In this document: positions 1,219 through 19,729 of the stretch, one piece after another
Layout: the number at the start of each line of letters is the position of its first letter
How positions within the stretch are numbered: the stretch's first letter is position 1
From: Defluviitaleaceae bacterium
GTDB taxonomy: Bacteria > Bacillota > Clostridia > Lachnospirales > WQUN01
NCBI GenBank assembly: GCA_009783395.1
Contig: WRHA01000360.1
Location: 1-19,729, forward strand
Length of the DNA stretch: 19,729 nucleotides
Direction: 5' to 3'
Position numbers and translations under genes: made by a program
Notes under the pieces: model-generated
What the model saw: only the letters and a program-made list of their open reading frames with translations
Told to the model about the DNA's origin: nothing
The model's database searches: none

Positions 1219-1464
1219 GTGACTGAAGAATTGCGTGTAGCTGTTGGACACAGAGTGAAGGAGCGAAGACTCGCTTGCAGACTAACGAGAGACAGATTGG
1301 CATCTTCGGCCAATCCGCACATAAGCGACAAATATTTATGGGAAATCGAAACAGGCAAGAAAAGTATGTCGGCAGATATTTTGCGCCGACTTGCCATAGC
1401 TTTGGATGTTACGTCGGACTGGTTGCTGGGCTTGCCCGAGAGGGATAAGGATGATGATGAGTGA
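1219..1464 (+). CDS. XRE-family (Cro/C1-type helix-turn-helix) transcriptional regulator
   Basis: An 81-aa single-domain DNA-binding protein. The helix-turn-helix lies at about residues 23-44 (TRDRLASSANPHISDKYLWEIE), followed by the Cro/C1 pattern of a conserved Gly (GKKSMSADILRRLAIALDV) and the WLLG ending common in this family. The acidic tail is ERDKDDDE. I prefer GTG 1219 as the start because AAGGGTG (1204-1210) lies 8 nt upstream. The in-frame ATG at 1201 has no ribosome binding site at normal distance and would sit only about 8 nt from the predicted transcript start. The gene is 32 bp upstream of the sheath gene and on the same strand, so it is probably the local switch for the injection-system operon, perhaps with autoregulation through the flanking inverted repeat. 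Confidence 0.82.
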   Translation: MTEELRVAVGHRVKERRLACRLTRDRLASSANPHISDKYLWEIETGKKSMSADILRRLAIALDVTSDWLLGLPERDKDDDE

Positions 1465-1496
1465 ATTATGCTTAAAATACGAGGAGGCTATAAAAA

Positions 1497-3911
1497 ATGG
1501 ACTTCATGAGGCAAACTTCGAAAACCATGCTCTTTGAGCAAATCAACAAAAGCAGTGATGTGCCGTGTTTAAGTGTATTGCTTACGGCTGCCGACGAAAA
1601 TGCAGGTGGCGCGGCTGACAAAATGACGGATGAAATTATTAAAAAGCTAACCGTCGAATCTTTTGAAGACTTTATTTCAAAATTCCGCCCGACGATCTAT
1701 GCATCCTACAGCACCGTGGCGGATTATGAAAAAATTACGAACGAGGAAACAGGTGAAGTAACAACCGGAGAGTTGTTGGGAGAGTTTCCTGACGTTCAGT
1801 ATTACATTTCAAAGGATAAGGTTTTGGACAAGCCCTTTGTTGACCCTATTGAATTGAATCTGACACATCCGGTTGTACGCATGTTGGTCAAAACAATTAA
1901 AGAAAAAGGCATAACAGGGACTCCCGACATTGATTGTGACTTTAAGTCTCTGTTGGCAGAGCTTGCTCCGAAAAGAGAATTTGAAATAGCAAGAGGTATA
2001 CAGAAGTCCCTGGACTTTTTATTTAAGAAATACAAGGACATCGAAGACGATTCCCCTGAAAAGCGGGAGTATGCTGTTTTGGTGAATAAGGAATTTGAAA
2101 AAATCGCCCCCTTCCGTGATAAACCTGAAAAATTGATTCCTATTGCCGCAGCAAGATTGGAAGAGAAACTGAGTGTTTTGGCAGATGATGCGAAAAGCCA
2201 AAATAAAGGTGCAAACAACGCCAATGTAATTCGCACAATAACAGATGGACGAATTGCATTTACCGCAAAGGGACCTTCGGTTACTCTCCCGCCGGCAGTG
2301 AGCGACACGTTGAACATTGAGCAAAAGGATGAAGGCGACGCTGCCGGAACCGCACTTTCGGTAACAGACGGAGAAAAATCGGATGCGGCGGAATCAGTGC
2401 CGCAGACGCTGTCCGAACTTTTTAATTATGATTTTGACAGAACCGCAAGCAAAGATAAAAAAGGAATGTCGGACGAGGAGTACGAAGACAATCGCAAAAA
2501 TACCCTTCAAATTTTACGAGATGTCTTTTTGCCCGCTGAAGCAAACGGCACTTCCGCCAAGGAAGATGTTGTGGAAACGGTTGACAGGTACAATTCGTAC
2601 ATGGACTTGTATAAGCGTTCACAAAAAAAACTGGTCAAAGTTGCAAAACCTTTACTTGAAACCCTTATTGGAGTGTATTTGTTCTTCCAGCAAAGCGAGG
2701 GATTGCGATACAGCCCAAAAGAAGCCAAGCTGAAGCCTAAATTGTTCTTTACAAACAACACGTACAATGACTTGTTTGGCGACGAAAACGTCGAGAAGAA
2801 GCTCAACGTCTTGCTGAAAACAATCAATTCGACAAGGCCGAATGACGCTGTTTGGTTTGCCATTGTTCCGGGCCTGATGTTTGAATCTAAAGACGCCGGA
2901 GCAGAAGGATATTCCGGTCCGTTGGAGACTGAAGCCGAAAGCGAATCTTCTTTTAATGATCCATTAACTGTGGCGCAAATGAAACGTTGCGTTCAGTTTC
3001 TTGGAAGGCAAAGAATCCAAATGTTTTTCTCTTTTGAAACATCAAATTCCACGACCTTTAACGACTTGCAAGAAAAAGGAATCGGTCCGTTCTCGGAAAA
3101 ACTGGAGCTTTTGGACGGCGAAAGATATGCAATCCCCTGCATCCCAAACTTTTCTTTGATCCCCGGTATTTTTGGCAAAACAAACTTCGGTAAAACTTTT
3201 GCATCCGAAGATGTAAACGGCGAAGCTATGGTAGTAGAGCAAGGAGAAGGAAAGACAGAATGGATTTCCGGAATTGATGTATCGTCCTGTTATGTTGCGG
3301 CTGGATTGGCAGCCGCATGGCAAATGCCTAAGTTTTTGACATTTAAGCTGAGTGAGGCAAAGGTGAAAAACCTTACAGCAACGGAAAGCCTGCCCGGTGT
3401 TCGGCTTAATATTGAGTCTGATGACCTTTCATTGATTTTGACAACATCATTGGGCAGAGGCGTTTACGGACTGCCGGATGATATGGTTGACGAAATTAAA
3501 AAAGAATCCGCAGGTTTTGTTTTTTCAAGCAATTCGCGATTCCTGAACGGTACACCCGTTAATAAACTAACCGTCCAAATTGCAAGGTGTATGTTAAAAG
3601 GGGCAACCGGATACGAGCCGTTCTACTACGCGCTAACGGAAAGATTTGTTTTGAAGTTCATTTCAGAAGTCACCGGAAACGAAGCCGCAAAACTGGCAAA
3701 ATTCTTCACGGGCGGCCCTGAACACAATGTTGTTGGAAAGTGGAGAAAATTATCCGTTGATACGGCGGGAAGAAGCTATGCCAATGCGGTGTTGCGAACA
3801 GATGATTTGCTTAAGCTCGAACCGGGTGATGAGGGTCTAATGACGGTGCAGCTGAATTTCGGCGGCGTTGTGACATATTGCGACATTGAAATTACATCGG
3901 GAAGCAACTAA
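1497..3911 (+). CDS. Probable contractile sheath protein (TssB/TssC-like, possible fusion; 804 aa)
   Basis: A GAGGAGG site lies about 9 nt before ATG 1497. The C-terminal third resembles the conserved core of contractile sheath subunits: a stretch at about residues 589-610 (Gly-Ile-Asp-Val-Ser-Ser ... YVAAGLAAAWQMPKF), then a beta-rich region ending in strands MTVQLNFGG and CDIEI. The N-terminus (residues 51-67, LTVESFEDFISKFRPTI) recalls the TssB motif around 'FxxIDxDNFDxVM...P'. A single 804-aa chain exceeds TssB (about 165 aa) plus TssC (about 490 aa), so a one-gene sheath with both elements and an added middle domain (about 230-380, acidic and Ser/Ala-rich) is plausible. It would polymerise around the tube and contract to fire it. 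It lies directly before the tube gene, the usual sheath-tube order. The assignment rests on motifs plus position and needs a profile search. Confidence 0.6.
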   Translation: MDFMRQTSKTMLFEQINKSSDVPCLSVLLTAADENAGGAADKMTDEIIKKLTVESFEDFISKFRPTIYASYSTVADYEKITNEETGEVTTGELLGEFPDVQYYISKDKVLDKPFVDPIELNLTHPVVRMLVKTIKEKGITGTPDIDCDFKSLLAELAPKREFEIARGIQKSLDFLFKKYKDIEDDSPEKREYAVLVNKEFEKIAPFRDKPEKLIPIAAARLEEKLSVLADDAKSQNKGANNANVIRTITDGRIAFTAKGPSVTLPPAVSDTLNIEQKDEGDAAGTALSVTDGEKSDAAESVPQTLSELFNYDFDRTASKDKKGMSDEEYEDNRKNTLQILRDVFLPAEANGTSAKEDVVETVDRYNSYMDLYKRSQKKLVKVAKPLLETLIGVYLFFQQSEGLRYSPKEAKLKPKLFFTNNTYNDLFGDENVEKKLNVLLKTINSTRPNDAVWFAIVPGLMFESKDAGAEGYSGPLETEAESESSFNDPLTVAQMKRCVQFLGRQRIQMFFSFETSNSTTFNDLQEKGIGPFSEKLELLDGERYAIPCIPNFSLIPGIFGKTNFGKTFASEDVNGEAMVVEQGEGKTEWISGIDVSSCYVAAGLAAAWQMPKFLTFKLSEAKVKNLTATESLPGVRLNIESDDLSLILTTSLGRGVYGLPDDMVDEIKKESAGFVFSSNSRFLNGTPVNKLTVQIARCMLKGATGYEPFYYALTERFVLKFISEVTGNEAAKLAKFFTGGPEHNVVGKWRKLSVDTAGRSYANAVLRTDDLLKLEPGDEGLMTVQLNFGGVVTYCDIEITSGSN

Positions 3912-3915
3912 CGAA

Positions 3916-3951: not shown

Positions 3952-3979
3952 ATTTTGGGCAGAGAAAGGGGGTGAAAAC

Positions 3980-4399
3980 ATGACTATGAAAGCCACAATC
4001 GGCAGTATTATACTCGGCGCACATGGCGGAAACAGCGACATAACAGACTTCGCGTGGTCGAACTCCACAACAGAAGACGCTGAACAAAAAGGCGCTTCAG
4101 TTAAAGACGTGATGACCATTTGCGGAAAAATCCGCGTGCCTAAGGATGACGACCATAAATCCTTGGAGCTTGCACAATGGAGTCAAGTTCCGCCGTCTTC
4201 CGAAGACGCATACAAAGAAGTTAGCGTCGAATGTGTTGACAAAAACACGGTTGTAAGGTTCGTTAAATTTCCAAACGCTTTTGTCGTGTCCTACGACGAG
4301 AAGTTTAACGTGAAAGGCGAATGCATTTTCGAGTTGGAGGTTCGCCAAAGAGGTGAAAACCTATCTGAAATAGAAATAGAAGGTAATTATCCCGTGTAA
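3980..4399 (+). CDS. Hcp-like tube protein of the contractile system (first copy, 139 aa)
   Basis: The ribosome binding site AAAGGGGGTGA, 5-6 nt before ATG 3980, is the strongest in the window and fits an abundant structural protein. The product is a compact all-beta protein with one central helix, matching the Hcp/tail-tube fold and length. The signature FPNAFVVSYDEKF (about residues 97-109), followed by a beta strand with FELEVRQR, is repeated nearly position by position in the second tube-like protein at 18755 (FENAYIVSYSE). In this family hexameric rings stack into the inner tube that the sheath pushes out. It follows the sheath gene by 68 bp and is framed by two stem-loops, which could stabilise its message. 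I infer the tube role from fold pattern, paralogy and position; there is no invariant catalytic residue to check. Confidence 0.72.
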   Translation: MTMKATIGSIILGAHGGNSDITDFAWSNSTTEDAEQKGASVKDVMTICGKIRVPKDDDHKSLELAQWSQVPPSSEDAYKEVSVECVDKNTVVRFVKFPNAFVVSYDEKFNVKGECIFELEVRQRGENLSEIEIEGNYPV

Positions 4400-4415
4400 T
4401 GAAAAATGCAAACTG

Positions 4416-4449: not shown

Positions 4450-4482
4450 TTGCTTGCTATTGCCGATGTGGAGGTGCTGTGA

Positions 4483-4893
4483 TTGGCAACACATTACGAA
4501 ATATTGGGGGTCGGCAAAAATTTTACTGAAAAAGAGCTTAAAGCGGCACGTAATAATTTGGTGAAAAAATACAGTACAGACGGCAATGAAAACGGTTCCG
4601 ATGAAATGATGGCGCAAATTAACACAGCCTACCGCGTACTGCGTGACCCTAAGCGTCGCAAAGAATATGATGCCTCATTGAGTGTGGGTTCGCCATCTCC
4701 GAGACACGCACGAAAAAAAACAGCTTCGACCGATTACGATAGCCAAACATCAGAGGAAATGTTGCGTGAATTGTTTGGAAAAAATAACGTGCAAAATGTG
4801 CAAAATCGTACTGCACGCTCGACGTCAAAAGATGGCCGCCTAAACAAAAGCAGGGAAATGGAAATTGAAAATATACTAAGCAGAGGGTTGTAA
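4483..4893 (+). CDS. DnaJ-like J-domain protein lacking the HPD motif (136 aa)
   Basis: The start is TTG 4483, with GGAGGTG 6 nt upstream; an in-frame TGA immediately before it rules out a longer form. Residues 3-68 match a J domain: HYEILGV, helix II with KELKAARNNLVKKY, and helix III ending INTAYRVLRDPKRRKEYDAS. The His-Pro-Asp tripeptide that stimulates Hsp70 ATPase is replaced by Ser31-Thr32-Asp33, so it probably cannot activate a normal DnaK. The rest (about 70-136) is a charged, low-complexity tail ending in a helix. It sits between tube and signalling genes and shares the operon with a degenerate Hsp70-like protein (13603), its most likely partner. It probably serves assembly or docking inside the injection machine. 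Fold assignment is confident; the partner is inferred. Confidence 0.8.
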   Translation: MATHYEILGVGKNFTEKELKAARNNLVKKYSTDGNENGSDEMMAQINTAYRVLRDPKRRKEYDASLSVGSPSPRHARKKTASTDYDSQTSEEMLRELFGKNNVQNVQNRTARSTSKDGRLNKSREMEIENILSRGL

Positions 4894-4896: not shown

Positions 4897-5448
4897 ATGC
4901 TTAACAATAAATTTAAAGATTATGTTTTTTACAATTCACATGGTCAAAGAATGATTCAAATTCTTGTAAGTTTTATTGTCACAGCCGCTTTGATTGTTAC
5001 CGCCTTTTTTGTTCTGTCTGTAAGCGTTCCTATTGCTATTATATTATTTATCACAGCAATTCTTGCATTTATATTGTTCCTTTCAGCTATATGGAAAGCA
5101 AAAAAATTGCCGGATTGGCAAATAAAAATAGATAGTTTTGATGCGTCAATAAGCCCGCAAAAAAGCAGATTATATGAAGACAGGGGTTATTTGATAGGGC
5201 TTGTGCGTAAAGCCGTGGTAATAACAGATGACCATAATAAATATATGAACCAATACGCGATTGTAAACTTTGTAAGTCAAAGTTGGGTGATAGAGAGCCT
5301 GGATCCGCGTATTTCGATTGTTCGCAAAGGTGAATTTTATCACAGATGTTGTATCGGAAAAAATGAAAGCGTTACATTTCAGTATAAAAAAGTTGATCAA
5401 TTGAAGCTTACAATCAATAAGGGTGGGGCAAATGGTAGCTTTAGGTAA
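4897..5448 (+). CDS. Two-helix membrane protein with a soluble C-terminal beta domain (183 aa)
   Basis: ATG 4897 follows the J-protein stop by 3 nt, with AGAGGG upstream, implying translational coupling. Two closely spaced transmembrane helices (about residues 19-41 and 44-67) form a hairpin, so both termini should be on the same side, probably the cytoplasm. Residues 75-183 look beta-rich; the segment around YAIVNFVSQSWVIESL and then a lone strand ending LKLTI resembles the second half of an FHA fold, but no phosphothreonine-binding motif is visible. It overlaps the next gene, which does have FHA features, by 17 nt. A reasonable guess is a membrane anchor or docking protein linking the contractile apparatus to the envelope. 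The exact family is not recognised. Confidence 0.7.
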   Translation: MLNNKFKDYVFYNSHGQRMIQILVSFIVTAALIVTAFFVLSVSVPIAIILFITAILAFILFLSAIWKAKKLPDWQIKIDSFDASISPQKSRLYEDRGYLIGLVRKAVVITDDHNKYMNQYAIVNFVSQSWVIESLDPRISIVRKGEFYHRCCIGKNESVTFQYKKVDQLKLTINKGGANGSFR

Positions 5449-5986
5449 GTGTGAATTAGGGCATTTGTATAATGCAAGTATATATTTCACGTGCCCATAC
5501 TGCTCGGATTTCTTTATTGACAGAGACGAAGTGAAAGAGCCGGAGAAAAATAAACCTGTTGTCGGTTGGCTTGTTTGTGTTATGGCAAAAAACGAAGCGT
5601 ATAAAGCACTTGTTGGACAAGATTACAGGGTTGTGAGTGGCGAAAACAAAATTGGTCGTGAGTCCTACAGCAATCAAATTGTGATTGTCGGTGATGCTAA
5701 AGTTGCGCCAACAAATCACGCAACCTTGGATTATCGCAAAGGCGAAGAGATGGTTGGCGATACAAGGATATGGCTGAATCCAAACAGAGAATGCGGAACT
5801 TGTTACTTTGACGGCAAACCGCTGAACACGTCTGTACCTTTGGAGAATACGAAAGTTTCTCCATATATAGAAATAGGCAATGGCGTGTATGTGTACGTTC
5901 CATTTGAGGGAAATCAGCCGGGCTTGAAATTCAACTGGAATGACTTGGACGCGGCGACTGAAGATGAATTGATTCCGGAGGAGTAA
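5432..5986 (+). CDS. Zinc-ribbon plus FHA-domain protein (184 aa)
   Basis: I chose ATG 5432 (AAGGGTG 6 nt upstream) over the upstream in-frame GTG 5423, which falls inside that ribosome binding site. Residues 7-24 form a short zinc-binding element: Cys7, His11, Cys21-x2-Cys24, in the CxxGHxY...CPYC style common in clostridial FHA proteins. Residues 43-165 resemble a forkhead-associated domain: NKIGR (72-76) with the phosphate-contacting Gly-Arg, then NHATL (95-99) and CGTCYFDGKPL matching the 'NGTxxNGxxL' element. The usual Ser of SxxH is Pro93, and Asn is replaced by Cys and Asp, so phosphothreonine binding may be weakened. FHA proteins such as Fha1/TagH control firing in some T6SSs. Here it lies next to a sister protein and a PP2C-like protein, suggesting a signalling or scaffold module. 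Confidence 0.78.
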   Translation: MVALGKCELGHLYNASIYFTCPYCSDFFIDRDEVKEPEKNKPVVGWLVCVMAKNEAYKALVGQDYRVVSGENKIGRESYSNQIVIVGDAKVAPTNHATLDYRKGEEMVGDTRIWLNPNRECGTCYFDGKPLNTSVPLENTKVSPYIEIGNGVYVYVPFEGNQPGLKFNWNDLDAATEDELIPEE

Positions 5987-5990: not shown

Positions 5991-6398
5991 ATGGAAGAAA
6001 AACTTGTTGAATGTCGCAATTGCAATCGATTGTTTAACGACGAAATGCATGGCGGCAAATGCCCTTTCTGCGTTACCAAAGACGAGAATCGTTATGTAAA
6101 AGGCTGGATGGTTTGTATGAAGGGCAGTCGAATCGGGGAATCCACCGAAATTCATGACGGCGAAACCAGAGTTCAAATAGCGGCATCAAAAACTTCTGAT
6201 GGAGATTATTTGTATTTGCATCATGATCATGAAAAGGGCGAGACGTATATTTTGCCAAACTTCACAAGAGGATTGATTTTCGTTGACAGTAACATTGTAG
6301 ACAACATAAAAAAAATTGAAAAAAGCGATAACGAAATTAAAATAAACGACTCTATTTTTACTTATGTGCATTTCGATATAAAGTATGCAGATTTTTGA
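5991..6398 (+). CDS. Zinc-ribbon protein with degenerate FHA-like domain (135 aa)
   Basis: The start ATG 5991 is 4 nt after the previous stop; its GGAGGAG site lies inside the previous gene. Cys8, Cys11, Cys24 and Cys27 form a classic two-knuckle zinc ribbon. The remainder tracks the preceding protein: KGWMVCMKG versus VGWLVCVMA just after the ribbon, and a final strand FTYVHF versus YVYVPF. The Gly-Arg and SxxH phosphothreonine-binding motifs of FHA domains are not recognisable, so this looks like a diverged tandem duplicate that kept the fold but not the ligand site. It probably works as a protein-protein adaptor beside its sister and the giant PP2C-like protein that follows 15 bp later. 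Confidence 0.7.
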   Translation: MEEKLVECRNCNRLFNDEMHGGKCPFCVTKDENRYVKGWMVCMKGSRIGESTEIHDGETRVQIAASKTSDGDYLYLHHDHEKGETYILPNFTRGLIFVDSNIVDNIKKIEKSDNEIKINDSIFTYVHFDIKYADF

Positions 6399-6413: not shown

Positions 6414-9400
6414 ATGTTGAATTTTAAACGCAAAAAAAGAGTCCATCTTGTTTCAGAAGAAATTAAATCCCCGAATGATGCCAGGGGAGAAAGCAGTGTA
6501 TATCAAGCATCTGCGATGCGCGACGGATACGCCTGTTGGGTTATCGCAGAGTCTTTGTCGAAAACGGTCAGTCACCCGGAAAAGCTGGCGGCACATTCTT
6601 TTTTGGAGAATTTTAAAAAGAAGCCGAGCCTTTCCGCCTCCGTTTTGACGTCCTTTGTTATGGACGCACATAAGGCTCTTCGCCGAGAGATTGAAAGCTC
6701 CGGCGGTAGCGGAAGAGCGCATTATCAGGTGTCTATTGCGGCCATTGTCACCGACTATAGAAGTGTAATTGCTGTCGGATGCGGGAACGCAATGTTTTAT
6801 CATTTCAGAAATGGTGAGATTAACAGAAAGGCGGGCATTTCGGAGACAGATTGCATTGGCGGCTATGAGCCAAGTATCGCCATATCAAAGAAAATAAAAT
6901 TAAAAAACAATGACGGCATTTTTGCCGCAACCGGTAAATTGTCGGAAATGTTAAGCAGGGCCGGGGGAAACACAGAAGCGGCTTTAGAAACTGCAATGAA
7001 CAAAAATACATTCAGCACTCCCGCCGAACAAGTTACCCAAATCCAAGAATTTGTTTTGGCTAAGCAAATGAATAAGGACGACAGAAGTATTCTGCCTTTT
7101 ACCGGGATTGCCATATCTGCAAACAAGGTGCAGTCGGAAAAAAATACGCCTGCCCCCTTTGCAAAAATCGCGGCTGCTGTATTGGTTATTCTTGCAGTTT
7201 CTTTAACCGGAATTTCGATCTCCTCCGGTATCAGACGAAACAGCGCGATAAATGAAATCAATACATTGGTGCAACAAGGCGACCGACATTTTAGTGCCGG
7301 TGAATTTATAAGGGCTTCTTTGGCATACGAAACGGCTTCGCAAGAGACATCACGGCTTGCGCCGATCGTTTCAGTCGCCATACGGTCGTGGCGCACACAA
7401 AATCAGCAAGAAATAAGTCGGTTAAACGCTCGTATTTCTATTGCGCAAGATGCCGGTGACGCAGAAAGTCAATTAAACCAAAGGAATTATCAAGCTGCTG
7501 CCGACCTTTTTATGCGCTCGCGTGAACTGGGGCGCGATTTGCGAGACAGAGAACGCGCTTTGGAAGTCGCCTTTTCTCCTCCGAGTTTTCGGCTGGCGTT
7601 ACAAGTTAATGCAACCGGCAATTTAAACAATGGTTTTGATGTTGATATTTTAGATAATCGTGTAAACAAAGCTGTGCGGCGTCAAAACATTTCTCATTTT
7701 ATTTCCTTGTCTCGTGCCGCAATTGATTCCGGCCAATATAACAGTGCCTTGGCGTATTTGCGCAGGGCAGATAACTTGGTTGTTTTGACTGTCGATTCTG
7801 TGGCTGCCGAAGAAATAAATATTTTAAATGCCGAAATATTGGTTCGTTTGGCTCAGGGGGCAGAGCGTGAAGAGGAAGAGGCAAGAGCGCAGAGGCTTAA
7901 TGCAATTTCTCTCATTTTGTTTGATGCCGAACGCGAACAAAACATGCAAAGAGCAGAGGAATTATATCAACAGGCAATAGACGAATATATCCTCTTAGGC
8001 GAGTTTAACAGGGCAAGAGATGTCCAGTTTAGGCTTGTAAGCCGTTTGATGGAATATCGAGACGAAGAACAGCGTGCGAATATTGCAATTATTGAACAAG
8101 ACCATGTAGGCAGTGCGGAACTTGCCCTTGCCTCTGGAGATTTCAGCGGTGCAATTATGCATTTCCAACTTGCGGAAGCCGCTTTCAGGCAAATAGGCGA
8201 GGCATCTATGGCAAACATGATGCTTGCGCGGATTGCAATGGTACAACACGAGCAGGAAAGACAAGAAAACGAATCGCGCATACAAGGCATAATGCAAACT
8301 GTTTCCACCGCGAGAAATCTCATGCTGAGCGGAGATTATGATCAGGCATTAAATCTTTTAACCCCCGCAAGGGAAAGCCTTTTGGCGGCGGGTGAATATT
8401 TGCGTGCGTCAGAGGTTCAGGAGCTTATCGCTACTGCGCGTTCCGGCATAACCGGTCGCGGTTTGACCCCCGTGGAGGCAATTCTTCAAGAAGCCGAAAT
8501 TTACATGTTGCGCGGCGAATGGGCAAATGCAATAAGATTGTTTGAGTCTGCATATACGCAGTTTACAGAGATGGACAACCCGGAGCGTGCCGCACACGCA
8601 CGCTCTCGCATGACGATCGCGGAAATGGAAAGAGATAACGAGCAGTCAACCGAAGAAAGGGTTAATCGAGCAGAAGCTCTTATGTTACAGGGTGAATCGG
8701 AATATGCCGCCGGGAGGTTTGCAACTGCCGCATCGTATTTCCAACAGGCGAGAGATTTATTCGCTTCGCTTTCCATGCAACCGGAATCGCTTGATGCGGC
8801 AAACAGGATAACGGCCGCAAATGCCGCAATCTCCGCTATTGAAGATGAAGAAACAGAGGAATTATTGGCACAGGCGCATGAGCATGAAGCAAGCGGCGAT
8901 GAGTCTTTGCGTGCCGGTGAATTTGATGATGCGCGAAATTCATTCAGGCAAGCACTGGACATCTTCCTGCGTGCCGATTCTGAAGCAGATTCAAATCGTG
9001 TCAGAGAGAAAATAGAAAGAACAGACAGGCAACAGGATGAAGAAGCTCAAAGAGAAGCCGACGAAGAGCAAAGAGAGGCCGACGAAGCCCAACGCGACGA
9101 AGAAAATAGCGCACGCCAAGAAAGAATTGACACAGCGCGTGACAATGTAGAGCGGGCAAATGATGCTCTTGCTCCTCCCGAGAGAGACTTTAATTCCGCG
9201 CGCAGATACTTTCAACAAGCACTGCGGACTTTTCAAGATTTAGAAATGGGCAGCGATATCGTAAGTATCGAAAACAGGCTTACTCAACTTGAACTACTGC
9301 AGGAAGAGGAGATTCGCCAGCAAGAACGGGCAGATGCCGATGAAGCATTCCAAAGAGCAAGAGACATTGCAGCAGACTACGAAATAGAAGGCAACGATCA

Positions 9401-11647: not shown

Positions 11648-12871
11648 ATGCTAAAGCCGGAAAACATAAAAAAGATAATAGACGGCATGTCAAATGCAAA
11701 CGACAAACTCTATATGGCAGAGCTTATGACAAAGGTGTTTACGGAGCTTTCAAGTGAAGTGGAGAACAAGTACAACAGTTTGGAAAACAAGATAAGGGCA
11801 AGCGTGGATGCCGTAAAGCCAATAAACATCTATGTAGATAAGATAGAAAAACAAGCCGACGGCAGTTTTTTGCACCCCGTATGTGATGACGATTTTTACG
11901 ACGGAGTTTTGGCAGATTTCGAAGGAAGTTGTCATCACATAGGCCTGTTTTTCGCAAAATTATCTTACAAGGAAATTTGCAATTTGCTTAAAAGCGGTTT
12001 GGAAATCGAAAACGGGCTGAAATTCACGTTTAAAAAAAACGAAAAATATTTAGACAAAATAAAAGAACTGTACGAAATTTTCAAGGACAACCGCATTGCT
12101 TGGAGAACGGTTTATTTCCCATACGCCTATAAGTTCCTTGACGTTTTTTTGTCAATCGATGAAAACGGCGCAAGCAATGCAACCCTAACGGAAGTTTTGG
12201 AAACGGAAGTTTTGGAAAAGTACAGCCTGAAAAAAGGCGTCATTCCCCGATGGAATATAAAAACAATAACCGCCGATCAAAAAAATTTTTCCGCCCCGGC
12301 TTCCTCCCCGATAGAAAATCGCATTTTGTACGAGCAAAAAGCAATTTTCCAAGATTCTAATATGTACCTTGTTGTAAATTCAAACGAAGCCCCTTTTGAA
12401 TATGTAACCTTCAGCCAAACCGAGAGAAACAGGAGTATATCCGTGTATTCCGAAACGGACAAACAAACTCTTTGGCAAATGAAAGCAATAATGGATAAAT
12501 CATACGCAGATATTTCGTGTCCTTTGGAAAATTGTCTGCACAATGAAGAAGCGGATAGCTTCGTTGGAGATTTTGCTGATGTAAAAACAAAAACAGTATT
12601 TGCGCAATGCGAAGTTGAAAGAATAATCAAAGGGTTTGGCAATGATTTTATCCTAAAAGAGTTGACCCCAGACGCTAAACTATCCGACAAAGAAACATAC
12701 AATTGCAATTTGTTTCTTGATAACAGCAATACAGAAAAAAAAAGAACCCTGCTGGCTAAATTTAAATCAACTCATGAAAAAAATTACTTGCTTTACGATA
12801 GGCTAAGTTTTCTTGTTTCACAGCTTGAGCTTGTTTTTCCGGAGTACAACTGGGCGGGTGAAATTGTATGA
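11648..12871 (+). CDS. Unrecognised CIS-cluster protein (407 aa)
   Basis: GGCGGTG lies about 8 nt before ATG 11648, 41 bp after the giant gene. The N-terminal 55 residues are helical and coiled-coil-like (MAELMTKVFTELSSEVENKYNSLENKI). The middle is mixed alpha/beta with FYDGVLADFEG near 82, and the C-terminus ends in a hydrophobic stretch with LVFPEYNW. There is no signal peptide, membrane helix or catalytic motif that I recognise. The helical start and overall plan resemble clostridial proteins often mislabelled 'normocyte-binding protein' that I associate from memory with similar clusters; I could not check this. Its ATGA overlap with the next gene implies coupled synthesis and perhaps a complex. 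A baseplate or assembly role is possible but unproven. Confidence 0.65.
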   Translation: MLKPENIKKIIDGMSNANDKLYMAELMTKVFTELSSEVENKYNSLENKIRASVDAVKPINIYVDKIEKQADGSFLHPVCDDDFYDGVLADFEGSCHHIGLFFAKLSYKEICNLLKSGLEIENGLKFTFKKNEKYLDKIKELYEIFKDNRIAWRTVYFPYAYKFLDVFLSIDENGASNATLTEVLETEVLEKYSLKKGVIPRWNIKTITADQKNFSAPASSPIENRILYEQKAIFQDSNMYLVVNSNEAPFEYVTFSQTERNRSISVYSETDKQTLWQMKAIMDKSYADISCPLENCLHNEEADSFVGDFADVKTKTVFAQCEVERIIKGFGNDFILKELTPDAKLSDKETYNCNLFLDNSNTEKKRTLLAKFKSTHEKNYLLYDRLSFLVSQLELVFPEYNWAGEIV

Positions 12872-13581
12872 ATTATGTGTGGGAATATGCGATTAGCGCA
12901 AACAATTCCGGCAAAGACATCAACGAAACAACCTATGTCCATCAAGAAGTGGAAGATAATTTTGAAAATTACAGCGCGTATACCGAACTTTCAACAAAAA
13001 CAATAAATGCTTTTGATTCAACCCCAACCATTATCGTTAACCCCTATTACCGATACGGCAAAATTTTTAGCGATCTGTTAAAGGAAAATGACAACACGGT
13101 AAGCCGCGAAATCAAGCATGTGATATTAAACACCGCAATGCACCTCTTAACATACGTGGACAGAAAAACGGGAATGAACAAAACAGAATACTATATAAAT
13201 TTTATAATCAATGACATCGAATCCGGAGTGTTTGGAGAGAACAACAGGGAAATTTTTGCAAGCGATTTTGATAGAAACCAAAAGCGCATGATTGCAAAAA
13301 ATATCCTTACGCTATACTCCATCGGCGAAGAAATACATGTGCTGAGAGAAACCTTCTCTCAAATTTTTAGAGATAGTTATATCTTTATAAACATGGAGAA
13401 AAAAAACGAGTTTATCTTCTATCTTAGAGAGCAAAAAACAGAAAAATATGAAAGAATGGTAGAATTTCTTCTTGCCATGTTTTTGCCGATAGATTGCACA
13501 AGTTCAATTTTTTGGACAGAAATTCTTGGCGTAATAGGTACAGATGATATGATGAAAATCGGCAAAATCGCACTTTATTGA
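12868..13581 (+). CDS. Unrecognised CIS-cluster protein (237 aa)
   Basis: The start codon overlaps the previous stop in ATGA, so translation is coupled. The protein is soluble. Its first 75 residues look beta-rich (ending TIIVNPYYRYGKIFSDLL), and the rest (about 85-237) is mostly helical with a hydrophobic helix near FLLAMFLPIDC. It has no haem or other peroxidase motif, although proteins of similar plan are sometimes auto-labelled 'iron-dependent peroxidase'; I give that name no weight. The tight pairing with the 407-aa gene suggests that the two act together, perhaps as assembly or baseplate factors. Confidence 0.65.
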   Translation: MNYVWEYAISANNSGKDINETTYVHQEVEDNFENYSAYTELSTKTINAFDSTPTIIVNPYYRYGKIFSDLLKENDNTVSREIKHVILNTAMHLLTYVDRKTGMNKTEYYINFIINDIESGVFGENNREIFASDFDRNQKRMIAKNILTLYSIGEEIHVLRETFSQIFRDSYIFINMEKKNEFIFYLREQKTEKYERMVEFLLAMFLPIDCTSSIFWTEILGVIGTDDMMKIGKIALY

Positions 13582-13602: not shown

Positions 13603-16266
13603 ATGTCAAATTTGTATACAAAAAGGGAATTGACATTTTACTCGTCGGAAGAGCTGCAAAAAATTGCAGAAGAGCAAAATATAGTCGCCGCTCGTATGTT
13701 AAGAAACTCTGCCGGCGACAAGGAAAAATTGATAGATTTAATTTTTCAATACTGCGCCAAACCTTCACAAAAAATCATTAAAAAAGTTGATAATGATCTG
13801 ATAAAATTTTTAAATGAAAATAAAAAAATGTTCAATTTCAAGGAATATCAAACCGACTTAAAAATACCCGCCACGATAAATGTCTACAAAAATTGTTTTA
13901 CGGGAACAGAAGCGGGTCTTAAAGCAGAAGGAACATTAAACGGAACAAAACTGAAACAAAGCAATGCCTTTTTGCTTAAACGCGGAAATAAAAATGCCGA
14001 AGGAACATTCGATTACGATATAATTTCCATAGTAAACATTTGTGAAGAAAATAAAGAATTGTACTTAGTTTTTAATAAGACATCTCTTTCCTTTGTAAAT
14101 TATCGCGAAAGCGATTCAAAAAAATATTTGATTGGTTTTTTCGGAATCGATGAAAGCGACGAATTGTACAAACTTTCATATAATAAATCAATACACAACG
14201 AATTAAAAAAAGACTGTTTTGTCGAAGCAATCCCGCAATTTGAAATAAAAAATTTAGCTAAAACAAAAAGCCCTTTGGCCGTTTATTTCGGGGCAAAAAA
14301 AACATATGCAATGGGATACAAAAACGAAAAACCTCAAGAAATAAAATTTGACGGCTTTAATTATGTACCTTCCGTTGTTTCTGTAAAAAATATAGAAAAA
14401 TCTCTTTTATCGGACGTTGAGTTTGTTTTCGGACATAAGGCTGTAAAACATGCCCAAAATGTAATATATGGCGAGAAATCCATACCGTCGTTTTTTTTCG
14501 ACATGAAAAGTTTGACAATTGACAGTAACAAACTTATTGAAAATAGTTTGAAAATCAGCGATATGGAAGACAACAGGGAAACCATAGATAGGGCTATTAT
14601 CATTAAAGAATTTATTCTTTATTTAGTCGAAACCGCAAAAATACAAGACAAAATCAATTATAAAGACGTTTGTGTTCTGTGTCCCACCTTAGAAATACGA
14701 TATTTTCAAAGTGCCTTCAGCGAGATATTTAAGGATTGCCAGGACTGCAGTGTGCATGTTTTTCCATATGAAAGTGCCGCTTTATTCAAGGATACCGACG
14801 ACGAGTACAGCGAAGATGCGATTGTTTTGAATTTTGCTTACGACAGTATTTCTGTTTGCCATACAGAGTTATTTTCTTCCGGAATTGGTACGAACGAAAA
14901 TATTGATTACGCAACATTTGAAAATACCTCTGTAAAAGACTCCGAAGAAGACGTAGTTCGCAATAATTTTTCACCCTATGGATACAAAAATTTAAATGGT
15001 TGGCTTTTTAAATATGTAAAAATTTTATTGTCCAGATATTATAAAAATCCGATAAATTTTAACGAATCGTTTTTTTTACTCTACAATTCGGGGGAAGAGG
15101 GAATCGCGGCTTTTAATGAAGCAATTGAAACAGAATATAAAAATTCCGAAAACATTATACCAACGGATACAAAAAAAGATGATTTGAATGACAGTGACTA
15201 CAAAAAGGTAAGGCGTAATTTTTACAGCATAAAAGAACTTACCGAAAATATTACGAATGAATTTTTTTCTCAAATAATAAAAAATGATGATACGGATTTG
15301 GCAGAATTCACAAGCGATCTGCATGAATTGATAGACCAGGGAAAATATGAAGAGCTTAAAACAAGGCTGAACAGCATCCCGCAAGAAAATAAAAATTCAT
15401 CGTCGGATGAGCTGGATATGAAAAAAATATGCGAAAACGTTTCTTCAAATTCGTTTTCTTGGAAAATTTATGTAAGGGACAAAAAGAACGCACCTCTTGT
15501 AGGGCATGATAATTTACCGCAAATTGAGATAAGCAAACAAGGTGTACTTCGTATATTCAAATACGCAACTCAAAAAAATCTAAATCAAATGAATTTTAAT
15601 TTTTCCGGAGCAGAGAAAATTTGCATAATACAGGAGGATACCGATTTTGGGTTCATCGACCAAGTGCTTTGTAATCAAGAGCGCGACTTGTCTCCCGACG
15701 CCATACATCATATGTCTGTTTCCGCTGTGCTAAATTCTGCTGTTATGTTGCATGAAAAATTATATAGGCGTGATTTTTTCAAAATAAATAATTCGTCGGA
15801 GTTTGAAAGAAGGACAAGTATTTATTTGAAATCCTTGGGTTATGAACTTAAGCATGACGGTGCAAATACTTGTATTTTAGACAAAATAATTAAAAACGGA
15901 CACTATGCTTTTAACAGACCCGAAACGGTCAAGCATTACGCAATTAAGCTTTCAAAAAAGGACGGTTCGTCCAAAAACATGGGTGAGCAATTTAAGCCCG
16001 ACGATTTTGACCACTACGATGGAAACCAAGCACAAGAATTTCTCGAAAAAATGGGAAAGAAAATAAGTGACAATATGCCTGTAAACACGCTGCTTAACAT
16101 GGCTTTAAATGCATATACAATTTTCATCTGTGAAACCCCAGAGGGGTTGATTAAGGAATTTGTTCTTAAATACTCCGATGATAACAGAGGGAACTATTCA
16201 ATTTCGAAAGATTGTCGGATATTAAATTCGCATTTTGATTTTTATGAAGGAGAGTTTTTAGTTTGA
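13603..16266 (+). CDS. Hsp70/actin-fold-like protein with degenerate ATP-binding motifs (887 aa)
   Basis: AGGGGAA precedes ATG 13603. Residues 14-50 resemble a SAP/Rho-N-type helical motif (ELQKIAEEQNI ... KEKLIDLI). About 65-215 is beta-rich and unassigned. From about 224 to 500 the order of Hsp70 nucleotide-binding elements can be followed: phosphate-1 as AVYFGAKKTY (226-235) instead of GIDxGTTxS; YVPSVVSV; FGHKAVKHA; VCVLCPTLEIR like 'ITVPAxF'; FPYESAALF (387-395) like 'NEPTAAAL'; and phosphate-2 as VLNFAYDSI (408-416) instead of 'FDLGGGTxD'. The fold seems kept while the Asp and Gly residues that hold ATP are gone. The C-terminal roughly 380 residues lack an ordinary substrate-binding domain. 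With the HPD-less J protein (4483) it forms a matched degenerate pair, perhaps scaffolding baseplate or effector loading. This is motif reading, so moderately sure. Confidence 0.62.
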   Translation: MSNLYTKRELTFYSSEELQKIAEEQNIVAARMLRNSAGDKEKLIDLIFQYCAKPSQKIIKKVDNDLIKFLNENKKMFNFKEYQTDLKIPATINVYKNCFTGTEAGLKAEGTLNGTKLKQSNAFLLKRGNKNAEGTFDYDIISIVNICEENKELYLVFNKTSLSFVNYRESDSKKYLIGFFGIDESDELYKLSYNKSIHNELKKDCFVEAIPQFEIKNLAKTKSPLAVYFGAKKTYAMGYKNEKPQEIKFDGFNYVPSVVSVKNIEKSLLSDVEFVFGHKAVKHAQNVIYGEKSIPSFFFDMKSLTIDSNKLIENSLKISDMEDNRETIDRAIIIKEFILYLVETAKIQDKINYKDVCVLCPTLEIRYFQSAFSEIFKDCQDCSVHVFPYESAALFKDTDDEYSEDAIVLNFAYDSISVCHTELFSSGIGTNENIDYATFENTSVKDSEEDVVRNNFSPYGYKNLNGWLFKYVKILLSRYYKNPINFNESFFLLYNSGEEGIAAFNEAIETEYKNSENIIPTDTKKDDLNDSDYKKVRRNFYSIKELTENITNEFFSQIIKNDDTDLAEFTSDLHELIDQGKYEELKTRLNSIPQENKNSSSDELDMKKICENVSSNSFSWKIYVRDKKNAPLVGHDNLPQIEISKQGVLRIFKYATQKNLNQMNFNFSGAEKICIIQEDTDFGFIDQVLCNQERDLSPDAIHHMSVSAVLNSAVMLHEKLYRRDFFKINNSSEFERRTSIYLKSLGYELKHDGANTCILDKIIKNGHYAFNRPETVKHYAIKLSKKDGSSKNMGEQFKPDDFDHYDGNQAQEFLEKMGKKISDNMPVNTLLNMALNAYTIFICETPEGLIKEFVLKYSDDNRGNYSISKDCRILNSHFDFYEGEFLV

Positions 16267-17015
16267 AAACAATAAAAGTCAATAAACCACGTTTTATCTA
16301 TGGAAATATATTAAAAAAAGAAATGCTTGAAAATATGCGAGATTTTTCATACGACTTTATGGGTTGTCTTTACGGCGATTTGTCTGATGGTATAGTTTCC
16401 GGTTTTAAGCCTGTTCCGGGCGAGGATTTTAAAGAGAACCCGCGCTTGAAGATTTCAAGCGGAATTGTTAAACATAAATCTGATATTTTTCTGATACCTG
16501 AAGTTGATAAACTGGATTGTGAAAGTGCAATTGGTAAAAAAATGGCGATAAAGTTGATTCTTGGTGATAAATCAGAAGACGAAGACTGGGAGACATTGGA
16601 GGTGAAAATTGCAATTTCAGAACCCAATGTTGCTTACGAAGGAGCTGAATTTGAACTGGGCCGCTTTTCACTGCAAAGCAAAGATGAATTGAAAACAGAC
16701 TACAACACACTAAATGATTTTGAAACAATAAATTTTTACAATGTTGTCAATGCAAAATATGCGGGATATGGAACGGAAAGCACACTTTCACCTGCTATAA
16801 CAAAAACATTTGCAAAAAGCGTATTGTCCAAAGCAAAGAAGCCTACTTCGCAGTTAATGTCTAAAGTTGGCTTGTTTTTAAACAACAGAACAGTGGAGAA
16901 AAATCTTTTAGTGCATTTTATAAGAAGCGAAGCCGGCGTTACACAAATAAGCGACACTGCAAGTAATGAGGATTTATTTAAAGAATTAAAATCCTTGGAG
17001 CAACGACTAAAATAA
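16263..17015 (+). CDS. Possible baseplate/adaptor protein (250 aa)
   Basis: TTG 16263 overlaps the previous stop (TTGA), with AAGGAGAG about 9 nt upstream. Residues 19-78 have a pattern seen in phage and CIS baseplate or fibre-base proteins: a short helix (MLENMRDFSYDF), then LSDGIVSGFKP, then LKISSGIVKHKSDIFLIPE, i.e. 'DGIvsGf...l.i..GI.....'. The middle is beta-rich and the end is helical (LFKELKSLEQRL). I recall similar clostridial proteins carrying the mistaken label 'DNA and RNA helicase'; no helicase motif is present here. Position between the Hsp70-like and tube-like genes fits a baseplate wedge or adaptor. The assignment is tentative. Confidence 0.55.
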   Translation: MKTIKVNKPRFIYGNILKKEMLENMRDFSYDFMGCLYGDLSDGIVSGFKPVPGEDFKENPRLKISSGIVKHKSDIFLIPEVDKLDCESAIGKKMAIKLILGDKSEDEDWETLEVKIAISEPNVAYEGAEFELGRFSLQSKDELKTDYNTLNDFETINFYNVVNAKYAGYGTESTLSPAITKTFAKSVLSKAKKPTSQLMSKVGLFLNNRTVEKNLLVHFIRSEAGVTQISDTASNEDLFKELKSLEQRLK

Positions 17016-17031
17016 CAAAGGTCGGTCTCTT

Positions 17032-17472
17032 ATGAAATTTTTGAAAAAACTTAAAATATTTCAAGGTAAAGAAGTTATAGCCGGTGATTTAGGCTTGGTG
17101 ATTAAATTTTCTTTGATTCGTATTAACGGGAAGGTTTATGAGACTTTTCAAACTGTTACGGACATTGACAAAATAAAATTAAGGCAAAACATATCCCTCT
17201 CAGACATTGTAACCAACGAAAAATATCTTTCTGTTTTTCCTCTGGTTGAGCATGTATTCATCAAAAAAACAGGTAAAGACACGATCAAATTGAATATCCG
17301 GGGCTTTAAATCAAAAATTCCGGAATATTCTATAGCCGTTTTCGGCAACAAAGAAAACGGCGAGATATGCAATAACACAAGTGTGCGGATTTTTGAAAAA
17401 AACAGTAATAAAACAGAAATTCAAATCATCTTTTTCTTTCAAAAAAAGGAGGTTTATTACAATCATGGCTAA
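17032..17472 (+). CDS. Unrecognised beta-rich protein (146 aa)
   Basis: A weak AAAGGTCGG lies about 6-9 nt before ATG 17032. The product is basic and probably all-beta, with no cysteine-cluster, signal peptide or membrane segment; strands include VIKFSLIRINGKVYETF and TEIQIIFFFQ. Its last 8 nt overlap the start of the next gene, whose ribosome binding site lies inside this frame, so the two are likely co-translated. Size and place between baseplate-like and tube-like genes suggest a small structural part of the injection system (for instance a tube terminator or wedge subunit), but nothing specific supports this. Confidence 0.6.
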   Translation: MKFLKKLKIFQGKEVIAGDLGLVIKFSLIRINGKVYETFQTVTDIDKIKLRQNISLSDIVTNEKYLSVFPLVEHVFIKKTGKDTIKLNIRGFKSKIPEYSIAVFGNKENGEICNNTSVRIFEKNSNKTEIQIIFFFQKKEVYYNHG

Positions 17473-18742
17473 AAAAGACAATATTATTTTCACGATTTCA
17501 ACTCGTCAAGGCGAAAATGCTTCCATGGTAATAAATTTAAGCAAAGACGCTTTGGATTCCTATGAAATAATAAGGCATCCCTTGCAGGAGAATGAAAAAA
17601 ACGAAAAGATTGCCACCGACATTAAAATCAAAGGTCGGCTTGCTGTTAATATTACCCGCAACGGTTCTGCCGACCAAAAAACGAAAAAAGAGAATGAGAA
17701 AAAAAGCAAGCGAGAAAGAATCACGGGTTTTATAAAAAAGCAGGGTCGCAATTTGATTAATAAAAATTTGGGCATTGACAAGCCCGCAGCCGAAAAAGTC
17801 TCAAATAATATTCTTAATGCCGTTGAAGCCGGCGGTAAATTGTTTAAAACATTTATCGCTAAGCCTGACGTGGAAACCGTTGATAATTATCCTGATGTTT
17901 CAGAAAATGAGAAAACAGAAAAGAAACTTCCTTTCGGCAAATTTACACGATTTTATAAGGATGTCGTGAAATTGTTTAACAATGTGGTCGAGCGGCTAAA
18001 CCAAGAAGACGCAGATGAAATTATGAACAATTATCTTGAATGTGCAAGCACGGCGGATGCAGTTCAAGTAATTGAAGACTGCGCATCCAAAGTCATATAT
18101 GACAACGATGTTCTGCTGCCCGACAACGAGGATGAGGCGAAGGAGTACATTGAATTATTAGAGTGTCTTCTTGATGAGTTGCTCAAATATTTTAACAAGG
18201 GCATAGGTGTGCTGGAAAAAGGCGGCTTATTGGGTGAGTTTCTTTTGGTTGCTTATTCGTTGGCCGATCATATTGGCGAAAAACTAAACATAGAGTCTGA
18301 CGAGAATTATGAACTGGAAACGGACAAAGCAGATGGAGAAGATAAGGGAGAAAAAGTTGGCTTCCCGAAAAAATTAAAAAAACAAGCTATGAAACAAGTT
18401 GAAGATGAAATAGGCAAACTTAAAGACAAAGCGAAGGCCATTTTGGATGCAGCTGTCGCATGGCTCTCCGCAAGAAACATCAAAACAGATATGAAACCCG
18501 AATACCTGGTAGAGTGGGCATTGCGTCATAATGGAGAGCCTGCTTGTTATATGAAGGTTGACCATTCTTTGGAAGGTGTTTCAATCAAGGGTTTAGAGAG
18601 TGATTTGTTGGAAAAAAGCAGAGATTTAGGCGTGTTTTATGTTGTATCTTACGTGGAAACCTTCGACAACAATAATTTAAGCGTCGAAAGAGGTTTGGGT
18701 TCATTTGAAATGCTTCTTCGCAGACACACATTTTTGCAATAG
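17465..18742 (+). CDS. Possible tube-like protein with a long helical insertion (425 aa)
   Basis: The start is ATG 17465, about 12 nt after AAGGAGG; the open frame extends upstream to 17381, but that part overlaps the previous gene and lacks a site. Residues 1-65 are beta-rich (IIFTIST, ATDIKIKGRLAVNITRN). About 70-330 is charged and helical, with Lys-rich (KKENEKKSKRERI) and acidic segments. The end returns to strands: CYMKVDHSLEGVSIKG, then FYVVSYVETFDNN (391-403) and GSFEMLLRR. This last block matches the tube proteins at 3980 (FVVSYDEKF ... FELEVRQR) and 18755 (YIVSYSE ... FVLKLSQK). It may therefore be an Hcp-like fold split by about 260 helical residues, suited to a tube initiator, terminator or tape-measure-linked role. 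Alternative: an unrelated baseplate protein with a chance match. Confidence 0.6.
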   Translation: MAKKDNIIFTISTRQGENASMVINLSKDALDSYEIIRHPLQENEKNEKIATDIKIKGRLAVNITRNGSADQKTKKENEKKSKRERITGFIKKQGRNLINKNLGIDKPAAEKVSNNILNAVEAGGKLFKTFIAKPDVETVDNYPDVSENEKTEKKLPFGKFTRFYKDVVKLFNNVVERLNQEDADEIMNNYLECASTADAVQVIEDCASKVIYDNDVLLPDNEDEAKEYIELLECLLDELLKYFNKGIGVLEKGGLLGEFLLVAYSLADHIGEKLNIESDENYELETDKADGEDKGEKVGFPKKLKKQAMKQVEDEIGKLKDKAKAILDAAVAWLSARNIKTDMKPEYLVEWALRHNGEPACYMKVDHSLEGVSIKGLESDLLEKSRDLGVFYVVSYVETFDNNNLSVERGLGSFEMLLRRHTFLQ

Positions 18743-18754
18743 GAGGGTTTGAAA

Positions 18755-19162
18755 ATGGATAGAAAAGAGCATATGAATATAAAACTTACTGTGGGAAAAA
18801 CACAACCTGTAAGTCTCACAAGTTTTGATTTCAGCATTGAATCAAACAGTTCAAAGTACGGAAAAGCTAATAATCCTGACAGGTTTATTAACTTGCGAGG
18901 AGCCTTAGTAAGAAACCAAGCTTTGGTGCAGACTCTCAGAAAATGGAGCGAGGATGCGAATGTTGGCGATGATATTTATAAAAAAGTGACGGTAAAAGTT
19001 TTGCATAAAAACAGGGCTATTCGCACTTTTGAATTTGAAAATGCATACATCGTGTCGTATAGCGAATGTATTGACGCTTCAACGTCGGGGGGGCATTTTG
19101 TGTTAAAACTGTCACAAAAATTGGTAAAAGGCGCAGGAATAACATCCGATAGCGAAATGTAG
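18755..19162 (+). CDS. Hcp-like tube protein of the contractile system (second copy, 135 aa)
   Basis: ATG 18755 lies 7 nt after AGGAGGG; an in-frame TTG at 18749 is too close to that site to be the start. It is paralogous to the 139-aa protein at 3980: same length, FEFENAYIVSYSECID (about 92-107) versus FVKFPNAFVVSYDEKF, and the same closing strand (FVLKLSQK versus FELEVRQR). Contractile systems often carry more than one tube-family protein, with a minor copy forming the ring that joins the main tube to the VgrG spike. Sitting just upstream of the small protein and the VgrG-like gene, this one is the better candidate for that tube-initiator ring, while the copy behind the sheath gene is probably the bulk tube. 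The role split is inferred from position. Confidence 0.7.
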   Translation: MDRKEHMNIKLTVGKTQPVSLTSFDFSIESNSSKYGKANNPDRFINLRGALVRNQALVQTLRKWSEDANVGDDIYKKVTVKVLHKNRAIRTFEFENAYIVSYSECIDASTSGGHFVLKLSQKLVKGAGITSDSEM

Positions 19163-19190
19163 CGGCAAATGGTTCTCGGAGGTAATAAGA

Positions 19191-19334
19191 ATGATAAAAA
19201 AAAGATTTGAAGATGAAATAATCATCAGATATGTAATCGAACACAAGCAGCAAAATGATGAAAGAGTCGAGGAGGAGTTAAGCCATGGTAAAAGCAAGGA
19301 CACCTGCGTGGGAGTTGAAAATAGGAAGCAATAG
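19191..19334 (+). CDS. Small protein between tube and VgrG-like genes (47 aa)
   Basis: ATG 19191 has an excellent GGAGGT site (19178-19183) 7 nt upstream. The frame encodes 47 residues, first a charged amphipathic stretch (RFEDEIIIRYVIEHKQ), then a polar tail with one Cys39. It ends inside the VgrG-like gene in another frame (50-nt overlap). Phage-tail and extracellular CIS clusters commonly have a short ORF at this place (for example afp6/pvc6-type genes), which supports it being real. Its function is unknown. Confidence 0.62.
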   Translation: MIKKRFEDEIIIRYVIEHKQQNDERVEEELSHGKSKDTCVGVENRKQ

Positions 19335-19729
19335 CTACAAGTTGCTTAAAATAGATGTTCTTAACTTCAGCTCTCGGATAAATAAACATGCTGTAATGAA
19401 TGTAAAGGCAAGCTTATCCGGCGAAAAAAGCGATTTTGAAAAAATCCTTGAAGTAGACAGGGAAACACAAGTTACCCTCCTTGAGAAAACAACAAAAGAA
19501 ACAGTATCTCTTTTTGTTGGTTTAGTCAGTCATTTGAATCTGGATTTTCGACGTGAAATTATTTGTATTGAAATGACTGTTGTTTCAAATACTTACACCT
19601 GTGACATAAAACGAGATGAAAAACGGGCTTTTCAAAACAAAGAAACTACTTACGGCGATTTAGTTGATGCTGTTGCAGGGGCAGGGGTTTGTTCGACAGG
19701 GGATTATGCAGATGAATCTATTGAGGAAT
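19285..19729 (+). CDS. VgrG/gpD-like spike protein, N-terminal part (truncated by window)
   Basis: GAGGAGG lies about 9-10 nt before ATG 19285; 148 codons are visible before the right edge. The sequence follows the N-terminal domain of phage late-control protein D/VgrG: opening strands with LKIGSNSYKLLKIDVLNFSS, a central LFVGLVSHLNLDF, a strand with CIEMTVVSNTYTCDIKRDEK, then the family hallmark RAFQNKETTYGDLVDAVAG, equivalent to 'RSFQd.xmTYxdvv..v'. VgrG/gpD trimers form the hub and spike at the tip of the tube. The gene follows the second tube gene and the 47-aa ORF. This is the clearest marker that the cluster is a contractile injection system. The spike tip and any effector extension are outside the window. 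Confidence 0.85.
   Translation, partial: MVKARTPAWELKIGSNSYKLLKIDVLNFSSRINKHAVMNVKASLSGEKSDFEKILEVDRETQVTLLEKTTKETVSLFVGLVSHLNLDFRREIICIEMTVVSNTYTCDIKRDEKRAFQNKETTYGDLVDAVAGAGVCSTGDYADESIEE

Follow-up and report, generated by a model that had tools for sequence, protein, structure and literature searches.

Contig WRHA01000360.1 of a Defluviitaleaceae bacterium, a stretch of 19,729 nucleotides referred to here as the window, was found to carry genes for a contractile injection system (CIS). With moderate confidence the cluster is interpreted as belonging, as a divergent member, to a family widespread in Bacillota that fits neither the type VI secretion system (T6SS) nor the extracellular contractile injection systems (eCIS), and whose typical members would be docked at the membrane and gated by phosphorylation. 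Among contractile injection systems the family probably forms a branch of its own, and the copy in the window is perhaps a disarmed as well as a divergent member. The window is an entire contig (C360) of a genome of 360 contigs that is 71.5% complete. Its main genes form a co-directional run on the plus strand at 1497-19728 with intergenic distances of -26 to 122 bases, in line with the operon of at least 18 kb proposed in a preliminary description of this DNA, which was made from the sequence alone.

Sheath, tube, spike and candidate baseplate genes

The first gene of the run (1497..3911, plus strand, like all genes of the run given below) encodes a contractile sheath protein of 804 residues in a single chain. 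It was not recognised by sequence, as no Pfam, NCBIfam, PHROGs or credible PDB match was obtained. The sheath fold suspected in the preliminary description was confirmed by structure comparison; Foldseek alone was weak, with one match below 0.001, and a second-look aligner was required. The best structure rows were entries from a cyanophage, the Streptomyces coelicolor CIS, the R2 pyocin and the antifeeding prophage (AFP). Alignment with single-chain sheaths ran from residues 1-9 to about residue 791, whereas alignment with six T6SS rows began only at residues 357-384. No recurrent partner of TssB size was found within two open reading frames (ORFs) on either side of the sheath, as judged from greedy ORF calls.

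A sheath made of one chain, as in eCIS and phages and not of the TssB/TssC type, together with the identity of its best structural matches, would also suit an eCIS or R-tailocin that is assembled in the cytoplasm, released by lysis and active at a distance, the signalling and membrane proteins of the cluster being regulatory passengers. This explanation is considered unlikely. Tape measure, fibre, lysis and cap genes were not recognised among the window proteins scanned, and further evidence against a released particle came from the gene set and the domain content described below.

The cluster continues on contig C345 (locus L004), the first 96 bases of which are an exact copy of the window's end. 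Beyond the window, C345 holds the remainder of VgrG 1, two small genes (185 and 213 residues), VgrG 2, a DUF4280-PAAR gene and a second sheath paralogue of 626 residues (L004:4074-5954), which is shorter at the C-terminus and closes the cluster. Two genes named by eye, one transporter-like and the other ileS, follow on the other strand. Contamination of C345 was unsupported, since its ileS shares 74-88% identity with the copies in nine same-genus genomes and at most 64% with those in 11 other genomes. An empty site could not be demonstrated, as the DNA past ileS was without match in the five same-genus genomes compared. The flanking DNA, to which the preliminary description had looked for baseplate and effector genes, supplied the rest of the spike genes and the second sheath; the wedge candidate was already present in the window. 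A shorter sheath paralogue was also observed in genome G291, where it adjoins the wedge gene.

Two tube proteins of the Hcp/TssD type are encoded at 3980..4399 and 18749..19162, as had been proposed. Their Pfam TssD matches lie under the gathering score (E = 0.0013) and just under it (E = 3.3e-5), respectively, and the profile of a 13-member tube family had Hcp1 as its sole match in the PDB (E = 0.0041). The protein of 425 residues encoded at 17465..18742 may be an Hcp that carries a large insert, as two weak, collinear Hcp-profile matches at residues 23-65 and 346-419 give it the appearance of a tube protein with 280 residues inserted. The VgrG-like gene of the preliminary description was verified at 19285..19728 (VGRG profile, 80 bits); it encodes the N-terminal part of VgrG 1 and runs past the window's end. 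With the DUF4280-PAAR gene of C345, family matches for inner tube, VgrG spike and PAAR tip are all present. A Pfam scan of 41 mixed proteins, 18 of the VgrG family and 13 of the PAAR family, returned Phage_GPD in 16, Phage_base_V in 14 and DUF4280 in 13.

Cargo-like domains were found in relatives, each in one or two proteins: Rhs, Endonuclea_NS_2, AHH (one Pfam match), Ntox44, Tse3-type muramidase and SLT. By eye, two proteins of relatives (L084:9593-11377 and L083:5552-7336) start with a DUF4280-like region, followed by a long C-terminal part built around an A-H-H motif, and resemble nuclease effectors, and a giant protein that runs off its stretch (L031:14602-19995) combines a VgrG N-terminus with Rhs repeats. 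The label 'DUF1795/EagR-like' for a family of 200 residues on the VgrG side was dropped for want of Pfam support. The mixed alignments A13 and A14 bring together unrelated families; their sole use was to carry sequences into Pfam scans.

A candidate baseplate-wedge protein (TssF/gp6-like) of 407 residues is encoded at 11648..12871 and showed a weak match to a wedge-like fold. Profile searches of the PDB and Pfam with this family gave nothing useful, and the Pfam TssF model matched none of six genomes, the E. coli control being positive. The wedge gene is overlapped by the gene for a conserved core protein of 237 residues (12868..13581), a TssG-like partner by position only, for which no convincing Pfam or PDB match was found. 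Neither was a convincing family or PDB match found for a second conserved core protein, of 250 residues (16263..17015; 15 members).

In the proposed machine, the single-chain sheath would surround a tube of the Hcp type. Both would stand on a baseplate, with the 407-residue wedge protein among its components. The baseplate would be associated with the membrane and the sheath would assemble upon it. VgrG and DUF4280-PAAR would form the spike, which in relatives would carry nuclease, muramidase-like or Rhs cargo.

Distribution and conserved gene set of the family

The sheath profile matched 24 of 392 genomes of the host order, to which Acetatifactor belongs, and 13 of 398 genomes in a sample of the phylum, the window genome being counted in both. 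The identical 24 genomes were matched by the profile of the 237-residue protein; in one of them (G077) the sheath is a fragment of 79 residues with a stop. The wedge gene and the 237-residue gene were each found in all 22 sheath-bearing genomes checked. Eight of 40 loci (L035, L041, L043, L051, L053, L056, L063 and L068) were left out of the sheath alignment A7, as were two fragments from alignment A8 and L095, L096, L104, L107 and L120 from A12.

When the window sheath or profile A7 was used as query, only the window sheath itself and one independent sequence, P0002, were returned, probably because of the word filter. P0002 (815 residues) is 47% identical to the window sheath over the full length. 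A query with a Paenibacillus member matched 2569 proteins among 7995 scored candidates. The best 120 of these 2569, where named, belong to Paenibacillus, Brevibacillus, Aneurinibacillus, Cohnella, Lysinibacillus, Sporosarcina and similar genera, and are annotated as 'transcriptional regulator' or hypothetical. The preliminary description had allowed that clostridial clusters of this type might already be partly known; relatives were found in a host range much wider than clostridial. If the interpretation is correct, a T6SS-like weapon is present in common Gram-positive bacteria (Paenibacillus, Brevibacillus and relatives of Acetatifactor), its sheath now being labelled a transcriptional regulator.

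Gene content was determined by counting profile matches in six frames for the window locus and for 18 loci related to it, all of which contain the sheath by construction. Among the 18 related loci, a transmembrane (TM) protein gene was found in 15, an FHA gene in 15, a J-protein gene in 14, a pseudo-PP2C gene in 13 and a vWA gene in seven. The envelope and signalling load pointed out in the preliminary description is therefore real and common in relatives, and the frequency of the TM and pseudo-PP2C genes argues against their being passengers of a released particle. Of the loci counted, only that of G045, a short contig, is without Hcp. The 407-, 237- and 250-residue genes and the Hsp70-like gene accompany the sheath in G767 and G635 as well, which are the most distant members and are without J, TM, FHA and PP2C genes. 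All four of the genes that accompany the sheath were missing from the stretch examined in G116 and G045 (short contigs) and in L005; three of the four were missing at the locus in G726, two of them, the wedge and 237-residue genes, being located at another place on its contig.

DUF4280 was found in 22 of the 24 sheath-bearing genomes and in 32 of the 368 other genomes of the order (Fisher p = 3e-19, kinship ignored). Five of the 32 sheath-negative genomes were inspected. Four of them had eCIS-type neighbours, with Pvc16_N adjoining DUF4280 in every case (below the Pfam cut-off in G008), and in the fifth, VgrG and DUF4280 form an island where a contig ends. Since DUF4280 stands partly beside eCIS-type genes, a machine of the window type would explain part of the DUF4280 genes of the order and not all of them.

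The number of DUF4280 matches is high in some genomes (11 in G259, seven in G201). This argues against a cytoplasmic cell-death CIS like that of Streptomyces, which would use a CisA-like membrane adaptor to fire, under stress, at the membrane of its own producer. The nuclease, Ntox44, Tse3-type muramidase and Rhs domains of relatives likewise look like cargo for other cells, and a self-directed device is regarded as quite improbable. An antibacterial use of the machine, with firing from within the producing cell, is proposed.

Omp85 was detected in three of seven sheath-bearing genomes tested (G635, G767 and G606) and in neither of two sheath-negative genomes of the same genus. In G606 it occurs together with the FHA/PP2C/TM set and a kinase. 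The presence of Omp85 argues against a design limited to thick-walled monoderms, and the link to firing across a thick cell wall made in the preliminary description was weakened accordingly.

The J/Hsp70-like pair and the proposed membrane and signalling module

A J-domain protein is encoded at 4483..4893 (Pfam DnaJ, E = 1.1e-13). Its HPD motif is replaced by STD, whereas HPD is kept in 13 of 14 aligned J proteins, the window protein being the exception. The Hsp70/actin-like core protein of 887 residues (13603..16266) is 19-22% identical to four relatives. Relatives carry the phosphate motifs IDFGTSNT and DCGGGTTD, and both motifs were found in 13 of 14 full-length Hsp70-like ORFs, the window protein, which has lost them, again being the exception; another four ORFs come from split genes and are incomplete. 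The J/Hsp70-like homology seen in the preliminary description was borne out, but the loss of the motifs had been overlooked. That HPD and the Hsp70 motifs are kept jointly in relatives and lost jointly in the window suits a functional J/Hsp70 pair in typical members. For the window it would mean that the pair has turned structural or that the control of the machine has changed. In typical members the pair would service assembly or recycling in place of ClpV, a proposal modelled on the role of ClpV in T6SS as given in the available part of PMC10433429. By eye, the G767 cluster encodes, besides the product of the core Hsp70-like gene, an Hsp70-like protein whose C-terminal part is vWA-like (L082:9578-11647).

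The protein encoded at 4897..5448 has one long hydrophobic stretch near its N-terminus, consistent with the membrane hairpin described earlier. Its gene occupies the same position as that of the TM family in relatives, but no match to the TM-family profile was obtained. The FHA profile of relatives gave two matches in the window, as expected from the two FHA-like proteins reported. Both are zinc-ribbon proteins: the first (5423..5986; FHA2-family profile match) has kept GR and NH in the alignment, and the second (5991..6398) has lost both.

The giant TM/TPR protein of the preliminary description (1730 residues, 6414..11606) was confirmed by a TM segment at about residue 252 and TPRs in its long C-terminal part (Pfam TPR_2, E = 1.1e-8), and was found to be a pseudo-PP2C as well (PP2C-family profile, 208 bits). 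DGxGG was present within the first 120 residues of none of 14 members of this family, and hydropathy gave one TM segment in 13 of the 14. Lys and Arg residues beside the TM segment number 86 before and 55 after it in the 14 members (three and two in the window protein alone). These counts suggest that the N-terminus is cytoplasmic and that the C-terminal part lies outside; in the window protein the outside part would comprise about 1,460 residues, partly TPR.

The membrane PP2C gene of relatives was not found in the window by the six-frame profile count. In relatives this protein has an N-terminal hydrophobic segment in most members and a strict ADG[MI]GG motif in four of 13; the label 'FHA3' first given to this TM-anchored family was replaced because the alignment shows PP2C motifs. 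A Pfam scan of 33 mixed proteins of relatives found PP2C_2 in ten, FHA in five and Pkinase in one. Kinase, phosphatase and FHA domains are thus held by the loci of relatives, the kinase by one locus only, in G606, where a Ser/Thr kinase gene adjoins the sheath. In the vWA family, six of seven members have an N-terminal and one further hydrophobic segment.

Typical members would dock at the membrane through the TM hairpin, the pseudo-PP2C as a receptor with its C-terminal part outside, the zinc-ribbon FHA protein, the membrane PP2C and sometimes the kinase. The predicted anchoring in the cell is drawn from hydropathy-derived TM segments and gene linkage. Firing would be gated by phosphorylation that is set by kinase and PP2C and read by FHA, and contraction would push tube and spike outward through the envelope of the producer.

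The signalling load of the window may be inactive, judging from the lost HPD, Hsp70 phosphate and, in one protein, FHA motifs. These losses and the missing membrane PP2C gene could mean that the cluster in the window is a relic, in decay or disarmed, in which enzyme motifs were lost first and the machine no longer works. The long branches of both sheaths of the window genome would agree with decay, as would the absence of the window's system from all nine same-genus genomes searched with the sheath and 237-residue profiles. Yet all ORFs are open across 18 kb, including those of 887 and 1730 residues, and the full-length similarity of P0002 to the window sheath indicates that the variant is an old lineage. 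A non-working relic is considered rather unlikely.

Position 1219 lies inside a small gene just upstream of the run (1201..1464, plus strand), which encodes a helix-turn-helix protein of the Xre type (Pfam HTH_31, E = 4.3e-7; HTH_3, E = 2.2e-6), a possible regulator. Within the run, the gene for a protein of 146 residues (17032..17472) had no relative among eight loci compared. A secreted glycosidase-like gene, by eye similar to GH10 xylanases, lies upstream of the cluster on the opposite strand (1-630).

Comparison with known systems

The proposed FHA/phosphatase control of the family resembles the threonine phosphorylation pathway of T6SS. The family shares with T6SS i-iii a tube of the Hcp/TssD type, VgrG, PAAR and a TssF-like wedge candidate, but differs in having a single-chain sheath in place of the two chains TssB and TssC. 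TssM (IcmF) was found in none of seven genomes, with a positive E. coli control, the window's own genome being only 71.5% complete. No Pfam match to TssJ, TssL or TssK was obtained among the window proteins, the genomes not having been searched for these three. T6SS i-iii has ClpV, whereas the locus shows the J/Hsp70-like pair; no AAA+ match was found in the 17 window proteins scanned, whole genomes not being covered by that scan. Membership of T6SS fails because of the single-chain sheath and because TssM was not found. T6SSiv of Amoebophilus is reported to lack TssJLM and ClpV (PMC10433429) and may in this respect resemble the window family, as compared by description only. FHA, PP2C, J or Hsp70-like genes are not mentioned in the available part of that source (PMC10433429).

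The eCIS (AFP, PVC and AlgoCIS) share the single-chain sheath fold with the window family. Several sheath and tube genes are present in AFP, as in the window family. Phage_sheath_1, gp19, Pvc16_N, gp25 and Baseplate_J were not found in any of the 17 window proteins by Pfam, whereas the same scan of nine proteins from four eCIS-type loci of the host order, one of them from the genus of the window, found each of these five domains in at least one protein. Membership of eCIS fails because none of the five occurs in the window proteins, and the same result speaks against the released particle considered above. The window family is accordingly placed outside both T6SS and eCIS, as the preliminary description had suggested. 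In the same-genus genome G008 (L158:10987-20000 and L159:1-146), eCIS-type gp25 and Baseplate_J, a weak Pvc16_N and DUF4280 were observed, and the window's system is not present. A prophage was also looked for, as the preliminary description had advised. No head or lysis match was found for ten proteins in PHROGs, and the phage, plasmid and IMG/VR sets gave no match to the window system.

The sheath of the Streptomyces CIS is highly similar to the window sheath. Tube, baseplate and accessory genes of the Streptomyces CIS probably differ from those of the window family, and the Streptomyces CIS is not known to have a comparable phospho-signalling set. The Streptomyces CIS needs the membrane protein CisA, according to the available part of PMC12237407; the window family would likewise depend on a membrane protein.

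A bolder view can be put forward tentatively. The family could be a third great lineage beside T6SS and eCIS, with members among both envelope types of Bacillota. Its machine would be anchored through an FHA/PP2C membrane module of its own and recycled by a dedicated J/Hsp70-like pair instead of ClpV, and would deliver many of the DUF4280-VgrG effectors of Firmicutes. The window would then represent a two-sheath sub-lineage in which the control layer is catalytically silent and the structure is kept. The family raises the questions by what means such a machine would fire outward across a thick wall and whether an Hsp70 can stand in for ClpV.

The cluster did not appear to be described in any of the papers listed, as judged by titles and abstract openings; subscription papers and preprints were mostly outside the search, so absence from print is not established. 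The closest proposal is that of PMC8651086, the available part of which postulates an 'unknown phage-like translocation system' for PAAR_H2 of Firmicutes and names no machine. DUF4280 PAAR proteins of Gram-positive bacteria are described there as adjoining a Phage_GPD/DUF2345 VgrG, with no known CIS genes nearby (PMC8651086). DUF4280-PAAR beside VgrG is common to both systems, the likeness being at the level of the DUF4280 family, and to the postulated system the window locus adds a sheath, a tube and a wedge candidate. The family described here may be the secretion machine at which those authors could only guess, and it offers a testable answer to the 2021 speculation.

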